Shown in pieces: positions 19,330-21,854 of a DNA stretch of 59,567 nucleotides (the first letter of the stretch is position 1; every line of letters begins with the position of its first letter). Source of the stretch: Anaerolineales bacterium (GTDB taxonomy: Bacteria > Chloroflexota > Anaerolineae > Anaerolineales > UBA11579); assembly GCA_020059485.1 (NCBI GenBank), contig JAGVCA010000041.1, positions 1 to 59,567 of the forward strand, given 5' to 3'. The position numbers and the translations under genes were made by a program. The notes under the pieces were generated by a model that was given only the letters and a program-made list of their open reading frames with translations, was not told where the DNA came from and ran no database searches.

Positions 19330-19350
19330 GAGCACGCGGCAAGCGAACTG

Positions 19351-19379
19351 GAGGCCAGTCCATAAACTGGCCTCTTTTT
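19351..19379 (+). terminator. Intrinsic terminator
   Basis: GAGGCCAGT pairs with ACTGGCCTC around a six-base loop, followed by TTTTT. It ends the transcript of the secreted protein gene just before the ssb promoter. Confidence 0.93.
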
Positions 19380-19380
19380 A

Positions 19381-19409
19381 TTGACTAATTTTCCATAAAA
19401 CAGTACAAT
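19381..19409 (+). promoter_or_regulatory. Strong sigma-70 promoter of the ssb operon
   Basis: TTGACT (19381-19386) and TACAAT (19404-19409) are exactly 17 bases apart. Transcription would start near 19416, giving a leader of about 225 bases before ssb. It starts two bases after the previous terminator's T run. Confidence 0.8.
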
Positions 19410-19417
19410 TGTTCTGT
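19400..19417. promoter_or_regulatory. Operator-like palindrome over the ssb -10 box
   Basis: ACAGTACAATTGTTCTGT is symmetric at 16 of 18 positions and contains the -10 hexamer. An adjoining CTGTAATTGCACAG at 19414-19427 gives a second CTGT/ACAG pair. Such a position suits a repressor; an SOS-type regulator is possible because ssb is often damage-inducible, but the spacing fits neither the Escherichia coli nor the Bacillus LexA site. Confidence 0.5.
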
Positions 19418-19500
19418 AATTGCACAGTAAGCGTAATCTGACACTGCCAGAGTGATCGACACTCCGAACTTCCCCCGCCGCTTACTGGAAAGGAGCACAA

Positions 19501-19542
19501 ATGAATAAGACCTGTTTCAGTACCTGCAAAGGTAGCGGATAG
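19501..19542 (+). CDS. Putative 13-residue leader peptide upstream of ssb
   Basis: ATG 19501 has a good AAAGGAG ribosome-binding site eight bases upstream and opens a 13-codon frame, MNKTCFSTCKGSG, that ends with TAG at 19540-19542. The stop codon lies inside the 5' arm of the hairpin at 19531-19561. This is the arrangement of a translated leader that decides whether a downstream hairpin forms. The peptide has two Cys three residues apart and no run of one amino acid, so it does not look like an amino-acid biosynthesis attenuator. I know no homologue. Too short for ordinary gene finding; the case rests on ribosome-binding site, start, stop placement and hairpin. Confidence 0.45.
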   Translation: MNKTCFSTCKGSG

Positions 19543-19572
19543 ACAAACCCATCCGGCTATCTTTGTTTGTTT
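19531..19572 (+). terminator. Terminator-like hairpin (candidate attenuator) before ssb
   Basis: GGTAGCGGAT (19531-19540) pairs with ATCCGGCTATC (19551-19561) with one bulged G and one G-T wobble, closing a ten-base loop, and is followed by TTTGTTTGTTT. It lies between the leader ORF and ssb, so it would cut transcription before the operon unless prevented. Confidence 0.55.
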
Positions 19573-19641
19573 AAGGCTGTTTACGGCGCAAACTGTTCAC
19601 AGCCCGAGATCGGAAAAATATACCATCCTAAGGAGTGCACC

Positions 19642-20092: not shown

Positions 20093-20431
20093 ATGAGTGA
20101 AATGAAAGGTAAGCCGCCCCAACCACCGCGCCCGCAGATCCACATCCCGGCCGATCTCGATCCCGCCTATGCCAATCTGGTGCGGATCGCCCATACCCCT
20201 TCGGAAGTGATGCTGGACTTTGCCCGCTTGCTGCCCGGAGATGGGCATGCCAAGGTCGTCAATCGGGTGCTGGTCTCGCCATTGAGCGCCAAGCTGCTGG
20301 TCAAGGCTCTGAGCGAAAACCTGGCCAAGTATGAAGCACAGTTTGGCGAGATCGTGATCCCGCAAAAGCAGTCGCTGGCGGATTTCCTCTTCCGCCCGCC
20401 GACCAAAGACAATGAACCGGAAGCCGAATGA
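20093..20431 (+). CDS. DUF3467 family protein
   Basis: The protein has 112 residues and no signal peptide or membrane segment. ADLDPAYANLVRIAHTPSEV, MLDFARLLPG and a VVNRVLVSPLSAKLL segment are the hallmark of DUF3467, a family of unknown function found in many phyla, in which the fold resembles immunity or chaperone-like small proteins. AAAGGA precedes the ATG, 31 bases after ssb. Its stop overlaps the start of the translin-like gene by four bases, so the two are translationally coupled and may form a complex. Confidence 0.8.
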   Translation: MSEMKGKPPQPPRPQIHIPADLDPAYANLVRIAHTPSEVMLDFARLLPGDGHAKVVNRVLVSPLSAKLLVKALSENLAKYEAQFGEIVIPQKQSLADFLFRPPTKDNEPEAE

Positions 20432-21081
20432 TGAAACACCTCGAAGAGATCGCTGAGCGGATCCGGGAAGATTTCGATGCCCAGAACGATGCCCGCGACA
20501 AAGCCCTTGTCCAGACCCGCACCCTGACTCGCCACTGCGCCCATGCCATCCGCGCAGTCCACCGGCAAGAGCGCGAGAATGCCGCTGCCGAACTGGAACA
20601 GGCCGGGCAGATCGCCCGTTCGCTTTCCAGCGCGCTGAAAGGCGATTACCCCAGCCTGTATTTTGCCGGCTACACCCAGGATGCCCTCAAGGAATATGCC
20701 GAGGCCCGTATCGTGTACGCCCTGGTGGATAATGAACCGCTCCCCACCCCGGAAGACCTTGAGATTGAGTCGGCCACCTACCTGAAAGGCTTGGCCGAAG
20801 CGGCCGGAGAACTACGCCGCCGGATCCTGGATATCATCCGCCATGGGCATTCCCAGGAGGCCGAACGCCTGCTCCAGCACATGGACGAGATCTTCGCCGT
20901 GCTGGTGACGATGGACTACCCCGATGCAGTCACCTATGGACTGCGCCGGCAGACGGATGTTACCCGCAGCATCATCGAGCGCACCCGCGGCGACCTGACC
21001 GTAAGTTTTCGCCAGCATCAATTGGAGAAAACTATCCGCAAGGCCGAGGAGAATTTCCTCGTCAACAACGACGAGGACTGA
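20428..21081 (+). CDS. Translin family protein
   Basis: The protein has 217 residues, nearly all predicted helix. YLKGLAEAAGELRRRILD at about residues 116-133 is the signature stretch of translin/TRAX-like proteins; YAEARIVYALVDNEPLP, before it, corresponds to the helix that lines the central cavity. Eukaryotic translin forms octamers that bind single-stranded RNA and DNA and, with TRAX, degrade RNA (C3PO); archaeal and bacterial relatives include RNases. I cannot tell from sequence alone whether acidic active-site residues of TRAX are all kept, so binding versus cleavage is open. The gene overlaps DUF3467 by four bases and is 12 bases before the Cas4-like gene, in the ssb operon. Confidence 0.75.
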   Translation: MMKHLEEIAERIREDFDAQNDARDKALVQTRTLTRHCAHAIRAVHRQERENAAAELEQAGQIARSLSSALKGDYPSLYFAGYTQDALKEYAEARIVYALVDNEPLPTPEDLEIESATYLKGLAEAAGELRRRILDIIRHGHSQEAERLLQHMDEIFAVLVTMDYPDAVTYGLRRQTDVTRSIIERTRGDLTVSFRQHQLEKTIRKAEENFLVNNDED

Positions 21082-21093
21082 ACCAGGGCTGTC

Positions 21094-21330
21094 ATGCGAG
21101 TGATCCGGGCATCCGAGATCGGCGCGTACCTGTACTGCCGCCGGGCGTGGAAATACCAGCGGCGGGATGTGCCGTCCGAAAATGTGCAGGAGATGGTCTT
21201 CGGCGCGGAGATCCACCGCCAGCACGGCCGCCGGGTGATGGCGGCGGGTTGTCTCCGCACTCTGGCGCTTGCCATGCTGCTGGCTGCTATGGTCCTATTT
21301 GTAGCCTATCTGCTCAGGATGGCGCTGTAA
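21094..21330 (+). CDS. Membrane Cas4-like nuclease, N-terminal part
   Basis: The protein has 78 residues. The N-terminus matches the start of Cas4/RecB-type nucleases: SEIGAYLYCRRAWKY, with Cys15 as the first iron-sulfur ligand, and FGAEIHRQHGR with the motif I His. A membrane helix (LALAMLLAAMVLFVAYLL) follows at once and the frame ends at TAA 21328-21330. The catalytic D-ExK and the remaining three Cys are in the next gene, which starts on the last base of this stop (TAATG). Homologues known to me from Chloroflexota are one protein with a two-helix hairpin in this place. So this may be a real two-subunit enzyme joined by its helices, or a gene one base short. Confidence 0.7.
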   Translation: MRVIRASEIGAYLYCRRAWKYQRRDVPSENVQEMVFGAEIHRQHGRRVMAAGCLRTLALAMLLAAMVLFVAYLLRMAL

Positions 21331-21854
21331 TGCAGTACGCTGCGCTGGCGCTGCTGGTTCTGGCGGTGGTCTTGCTGCTGGTGTCCACTCGGGCGCGCCA
21401 GGCTGCTGGCCTGCCCGGCGGAAGGGTGGTCTATGAGGACACCTCCCGCTGGGAAAAATTGGAAAAACCGCTCTACGACCCGATCACCCAGCTGACCGGC
21501 CGGCCGGATTATCTCGTCCGGCAGGGGAAGCAGGTCATCCCGGTGGAAGTCAAAACTGGCCGGGCACCGGAGAGTCCGTACGATTCCCATATCTATCAGT
21601 TGGCGGCCTACTGCCTGCTGGTGGAGCGAGAGTATGGTCAGCCTCCGGAGTACGGTATCATCCATTACACCGGCCGGACTTTTTCCGTGCCCTACAATGA
21701 TGAACTCAGAGAGGCCCTGATCGACCTGCTGACCGAGATCCGCCGCGACGACCAGCGCCAGAATGTCGACCGCTCGCACGACCAGCCGGCCCGCTGCCGG
21801 GGATGCGGCTACGCCTACACCTGTGACCAGGCCTTGGATGAAGGATTTCATTGA
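21330..21854 (+). CDS. Membrane Cas4-like nuclease, C-terminal catalytic part
   Basis: The protein has 174 residues. It starts with a membrane helix (ALALLVLAVVLLLV) and a GLPGGRVVYEDT segment, then the PD-(D/E)xK core: Asp60 in LTGRPDYLV, Glu73 and Lys75 in IPVEVKTGR, and the Q-x3-Y motif in HIYQLAAYCLLVE. The C-terminal CRGCGYAYTC supplies three Cys of the [4Fe-4S] cluster; the fourth is in the preceding gene. Cas4 enzymes are 5'-to-3' or end-processing DNA nucleases. There are no other cas genes and no CRISPR array here, so this is a stand-alone form. ATG 21330 overlaps the preceding TAA. An open frame upstream (from 21147) is only a shadow of the first part. Confidence 0.75.
   Translation: MQYAALALLVLAVVLLLVSTRARQAAGLPGGRVVYEDTSRWEKLEKPLYDPITQLTGRPDYLVRQGKQVIPVEVKTGRAPESPYDSHIYQLAAYCLLVEREYGQPPEYGIIHYTGRTFSVPYNDELREALIDLLTEIRRDDQRQNVDRSHDQPARCRGCGYAYTCDQALDEGFH

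Follow-up and report, generated by a model that had tools for sequence, protein, structure and literature searches.

The window analysed here, a contig of 59,567 nucleotides from an Anaerolineales bacterium (Chloroflexota), carries a gene for single-stranded DNA-binding protein, ssb, followed on the same strand by genes for a DUF3467 protein, a translin-like protein and a Cas4-like nuclease. The gene order ssb, DUF3467, translin-like is conserved as an operon throughout the order Anaerolineales, often with the Cas4-like nuclease. Between the terminator of the upstream gene and the ssb start codon lie a promoter, an operator-like palindrome, a folded RNA element, a short open reading frame (ORF) and a hairpin (Table 1). 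We refer to the window's family within Anaerolineales as f1, and SSB was searched in 61 genomes.

Table 1. Features of the ssb leader and operon in the window
Feature	Position	Strand	Remark
Intrinsic terminator of upstream gene	19350..19379	+	10-pair stem, 6 GC, then TTTTTATTGAC
Sigma-70-type promoter TTGACT-N17-TACAAT	19381..19409	+	-35 at 19381-19386, -10 at 19404-19409
LexA-type operator ACAGTACAATTGTTCTGT over -10 box	19400..19417	+	Core GTACAATTGTTC, one off GAAC-N4-GTTC
Conserved structured RNA of ssb leader	19425..19495	+	Covariation, covariance-model matches, absence from Rfam
AAAGGAG, ancestral ssb Shine-Dalgarno, now before leader ORF	19489..19495	+	In 36 insert-free genomes, homologous GGAG then ssb start
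13-codon leader ORF MNKTCFSTCKGSG	19501..19542	+	AAAGGAG 5 nt before ATG 19501; stop TAG 19540-19542
Lineage-specific insert between ancestral and present ssb start codons	19504..19641	+	Comparison with relatives
Hairpin (19526-19566) and T-rich stretch (19562-19572), candidate weak terminator/attenuator	19526..19572	+	-18.0 kcal/mol, 0/100 shuffles
Present Shine-Dalgarno of ssb, AAGGAG	19630..19635	+	
ssb, single-stranded DNA-binding protein, 139 aa	19642..20061	+	PF00436, E 3e-28; PDB SSBs
DUF3467 protein	20093..20431	+	PF11950, E 1.8e-20
Translin-like protein	20428..21081	+	PF01997, E 2.2e-5, just below gathering score
Cas4-like PD-(D/E)XK nuclease	21207..21854	+	PF01930, E 2.4e-10

The ssb promoter stands where an earlier note on this DNA had placed it. 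It matches 10 of 12 consensus positions with a spacer of 17 nt, and its -35 box is abutted by the T run of the upstream gene's terminator, which a terminator scan lists as strong at 19350-19375. The note had also described an 18-base near-palindrome over the -10 box and taken it for an operator. That palindrome is present, symmetric at 16 of 18 positions, and it is recognizable as a LexA-type box. Using a matrix drawn from lexA promoters only (two boxes, eight relatives), it scores 17.4 bits, which equals the best lexA boxes and is reached by none of 200 shuffles. A lexA gene was found in 12 of the 12 genomes tried, and the boxes in the relatives' own lexA promoters read AGAACGnnTGTTCG and AGCACAAATGAACT. 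As in known LexA/SOS promoters, the palindrome overlaps the promoter. It differs in its left half-site, altered to GTAC because the same letters serve as the -10 hexamer, and is otherwise nothing unusual. LexA-type boxes recur at ssb in families f1, f5-f9 and f14 and in weaker form in f3, f4, f10, f12 and f15, while the matrix scan of the relatives' ssb promoters detected none in f2, f11 and f13; the place of the box within the promoter varies among relatives. The box and its recurrence make SOS control of the window's ssb through LexA likely. The ssb promoters of one f1 genus, g9 (L010-L017, L019), have lost the box at -10 and carry a similar one, CGCACATTTGGTCT, between -35 and -10.

Downstream of the promoter, the predicted fold of the whole leader pairs CAGTAAGCG with CGCTTACTG, enclosing GAGTG/CACTC, ahead of AAAGGAG. 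The element consists of a stem P1 (19425-19433/19479-19487) and, inside it, a stem P2 (19450-19454/19460-19464). This structure, larger than the hairpin and upstream of the ORF, had escaped the earlier note. Relatives in several families share a common ssb leader of ~75 nt, GGTGAGTG...[CCGGGC..GCCCGG]GAAC...GCCGCTCACC, with GGAG at its end. An alignment of 23 leaders reveals two-sided, compensatory changes at 14 of 16 pairs, and 87.9% of its cells are paired compared with 31-41% in slid controls; no shuffle reached the observed values. The signal persists in 48 sequences, with double-change cells numbering 80 (19.4 in shuffles), although the larger alignment, having been fitted to the model, leans towards it. 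Families f6, f8 and f14, together with the f1 genome G005, have a third helix, P1b (GGC-N-CTG/CAG-GCC with a bulge), stacked on P1 and itself partly covarying, which brings the sister families to 21 pairs, 15 of them two-sided. Covariation of this kind supports the fold. The stems are nested, and by inspection alone no partner for a pseudoknot was seen. Rfam has no match to the element in the window at E <= 5, apart from a single hit (E 3.7) that lies on the opposite strand and is due to chance, and in six relatives the element goes unmatched at E <= 2. The main result of this work is a new, evolutionarily conserved structured leader RNA of ssb that is absent from Rfam.

The element is tied to a single gene. 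Of 301 genomes from the order, 49 contain a single match each to a first covariance model, R1, and 48 of the 49 matches lie directly upstream of ssb; the exception (L076 in G220), not at ssb, was rejected as a chance match. A second model, R2, has matches in 59 genomes. In every one of the 56 genomes with E <= 2e-5 the match is immediately followed by ssb; four further matches, with E > 1e-3 (G035, G091, G116 and G157:C104), do not stand before ssb and were likewise set aside as chance. The carriers belong to f1, f5, f6, f8 and f14. Because a sample of 400 genomes from the phylum returned only the window itself (0 of 399 others), this is a narrow family of elements. The second ssb of the window's genome, a paralogue located in rpsF-ssb-rpsR, is without the element. 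Families f7, f11 and f13 keep the same operon with no detectable element, so the element is dispensable for gene order. Since the operon is conserved both with and without it, the DUF3467 and translin-like partners do not explain its distribution. In f3 (L155), f9 (L158/L165) and f10 (L159/L173), the ssb leaders also have a stem ending near the Shine-Dalgarno, some with an inner hairpin. The likeness is one of shape, judged by eye from single-sequence folds, and does not extend to the sequence; f3 alone (L155, z = -4.4) does better than shuffles. Going by these modelled folds, an architecture with a stem near the Shine-Dalgarno may extend beyond the leaders that the covariance model detects.

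Where the element sits relative to the ribosome-binding site bears on what it does. The end of P1 adjoins the Shine-Dalgarno, at most ~10 nt before it. Sequestration of that site by P1 was considered and rejected, as the site is unpaired in the predicted fold; for the same reason an on/off switch is not visible in the sequence. In 36 of the 56 genomes with the element, including G005 of f1, ssb uses the GGAG behind P1 as its Shine-Dalgarno and starts within ~20 nt of it. Because AAAGGAG serves ssb itself in these genomes, the most likely role of the element is that of an operator acting on ssb translation. A folded RNA beside the landing site of the ribosome probably lets the cell tune the amount of SSB. 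The element could instead be a passive stabilizer of the 5' end, or a ligand-free spacer that keeps the site accessible to ribosomes, a role that would suit stems whose sequence varies freely and a P1 that begins only ~8 nt into the expected transcript. We consider this improbable, because the sister families conserve more than a stabilizer would call for, namely the internal-loop letters GGAAC and GACAG and the third helix, and because the link to one gene is strict.

The remaining 20 of the 56 genomes, all from f1, have 75-140 nt between the old Shine-Dalgarno and ssb, with a second Shine-Dalgarno at ssb. The 13-codon ORF of the window, which the earlier note had correctly described together with its well-spaced AAAGGAG, exists because the window's family gained this insert after the old start codon. 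A mobile-element origin of the insert was rejected, as it is present in a single copy in its genome and has no match in the genus. The ATG following the old Shine-Dalgarno is kept in 8 of the 20 insert-bearing genomes (G000, G001, G002, G007, G008, G009, G012 and G014), and 8 of the 12 that lack it have ATA, ATT or ATC at the old start position. The Shine-Dalgarno is retained even where the ATG is lost. We also rejected the ORF as a conserved peptide, since the ORF encodes unrelated peptides even in members of the genus (MNKTCFSTCKGSG, MNSPTSDS, MNTNRCSVSKIV). Likeness to the SSB N-terminus, MYHTIIIVGNLGRD, is seen for the G009 peptide, MQNPIVLDGRKPRD (15 tests, p < 0.0005), and weakly for those of G012 and G014 (p ~0.05), but not for that of the window (p = 0.29). 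In G008 (L005) the ORF is in frame with ssb with no stop between, and an N-terminally extended SSB could arise there from the old start.

From the position of the old Shine-Dalgarno, the ATA/ATT/ATC remnants, the G008 frame and the G009 likeness, the most plausible reading of the ORF is that ssb once started there. Comparison of the leaders shows the order of events, in which the ORF is a late addition specific to this lineage; a shift of a gene start can leave a Shine-Dalgarno and a start codon behind as a leader ORF. It is a nearly even call whether the ORF is by now nothing but a passive relic of that start, with no present function. The features just listed are what such a relic would leave. 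Three observations speak against it: the absence of SSB likeness in the window's own peptide, the retention of the Shine-Dalgarno in genomes without the ATG, and the co-occurrence of the ORF with a hairpin.

This hairpin, followed by a T-rich stretch, and the placement of the TAG stop within its 5' arm are as the earlier note had stated. The extended form has 15 pairs, the T-rich stretch is TTTGTTTGTTT, and none of 100 dinucleotide shuffles of the window's spacer equals its combined hairpin and T score. Because G breaks up the T tract and the extended stem takes in part of it, the hairpin is only moderate as an intrinsic terminator, and the terminator scan of the window does not list it. The note had read this geometry as translation-controlled attenuation, in which a ribosome on the 13-codon ORF would cover the 5' arm and block the terminator, making transcription of ssb depend on translation of the ORF. 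The geometry is real. Among the 8 ORF-bearing genomes, 4 (G000, G002, G012 and G014) have their stop within the 5' arm and G001 has it at the base of the arm, and the hairpin beats shuffles (at most 4/100) in 8 of 8 genomes with the ATG compared with 2 of 12 without. In G007, however, the ORF stops ~20 nt before the hairpin, and in G009 it passes through it. On an SSB tree, itself weakly supported, ORF and hairpin each changed only ~4 times; several genomes have poor or interrupted T tracts. The global fold of the leader lets the upstream stems and the hairpin form together, and no antiterminator fold was identified in it. Leader-peptide attenuators of the trp and erm type likewise have a short-ORF stop overlapping the 5' arm and T-rich DNA after the hairpin, but the window's leader differs from them in having no conserved peptide, codon run or identified antiterminator, and in being lineage-specific. 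Conservation of ORF, stop and stem across Anaerolineae, which the note had proposed to look for, fails outside f1, where there is no leader ORF and AAAGGAG is the ssb Shine-Dalgarno; within f1, a minority of the insert-bearing genomes keep the ATG, and the peptides are unrelated. Judged from these leaders, attenuation is possible within f1, though we would give it a low probability, and it is not the conserved mechanism. What stands of the earlier reading is a regulated ssb leader with an operator and a regulatory-looking RNA; the part that is conserved and covaries is the upstream two-stem RNA rather than the ORF and hairpin.

The amount of SSB in a cell must match the amount of single-stranded DNA. 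We slightly favor a reading in which this is an SOS-type leader of the ssb operon, comprising a LexA-type box and then a conserved folded RNA that acts as a translational operator, with SSB as its most economical ligand and a relay through the ORF possible in f1. SSB is the most economical choice because this ssb alone carries the element and because SSBs bind RNA; the E. coli protein, for example, binds mRNA (PMC5811048). According to this scheme, LexA bound to the box on -10 would hold transcription of the operon. The transcript would start with the folded RNA, P1 closing it and P2 inside, and the end of P1 would lie inside or next to the 30S footprint at the exposed Shine-Dalgarno. A ligand bound to the internal loops or stabilizing P1 could then hinder loading of the 30S subunit at the adjacent Shine-Dalgarno, and SSB released from single-stranded DNA would shut off its own synthesis. 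In f1, the insert would later have shifted the ssb start downstream, whereupon the old Shine-Dalgarno, in some genomes with the old ATG, would open a short ORF leading into the hairpin, and control might be relayed through that ORF. We infer translational action, SSB as the ligand and any role of the ORF, and autoregulation by SSB through the element is our leading guess, by analogy. Two features of the window count against the scheme: its element no longer stands at the ssb start, and P1b is gone from it. A ligand other than SSB, or a passive stem, would leave identical traces in the sequence.

Translins bind RNA. The operon encodes a translin-like protein conserved order-wide, and two stems with internal loops form an architecture that suits many ligands, so the element might serve as an operator or riboswitch that responds to another ligand, which could be a small molecule, a ribosomal protein, or the translin-like or DUF3467 protein. 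This seems unlikely to us, as the genes for both partner proteins are present in the element-less f7, f11 and f13 too, Rfam gave no match to known riboswitches or r-protein leaders, and the element is always at ssb and only there.

Returning to SSB as the ligand, the closest precedent is from phage. Gp32 of T4 represses its own mRNA via a folded leader 67 nt upstream of the start codon (PMC3014915, PMC535899). The T4 operator combines a pseudoknot with A+U-rich repeats over the ribosome-binding site; compared with the gene 32 operators of T4 and RB69 (PMC3014915, PMC535899), the ssb element has two nested stems with internal loops and a P1 close to the Shine-Dalgarno, belongs to a cellular gene, and has a ligand that is still putative. 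Leaders binding S6:S18 in rpsF-ssb-rpsR operons (PMC7247131, PMC10931766) are also structured and precede an operon that can hold ssb, but the window's ssb lies outside the rpsF operon, the genome's other ssb being the one inside, and its leader has no Rfam match. The STAXI motif (PMC2864571), another structured motif near ssb-type genes, consists of tandem pseudoknots that possibly act as DNA, whereas the ssb element is a single-copy, two-stem structure always in the 5' leader of ssb. No ssb leader RNA in cellular genomes was found in the open-licence literature. It is conceivable, although we hold this view only tentatively, that the element represents a new class of cis-regulatory RNA that lets a cellular SSB, or an operon partner, detect free SSB and repress its own translation on top of LexA control, and that the old start in f1 has become a leader ORF through which translation status reaches the hairpin. 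A covarying leader confined to ssb and absent from Rfam makes self-control of translation by a cellular SSB, as known for gp32 of phage T4, directly testable.

LexA-like boxes were also seen at other genes in G000. Five genes that by eye, from FVWCPKYRRK, resemble IS200/IS605-type transposases (C10:92001, C16:509, C17:81674, C20:15885 and C49:102; L175-L179) have the exact box AGTACAATTGTTCTAT over -10. Their ATG follows TACAAT by 7 nt, making them leaderless, and the boxes suggest SOS-controlled transposition. A further LexA-like box, AGCACAATTGTTCTGA, lies ~150 nt upstream of an rpoC-like gene (G000:C57:69664, L180).
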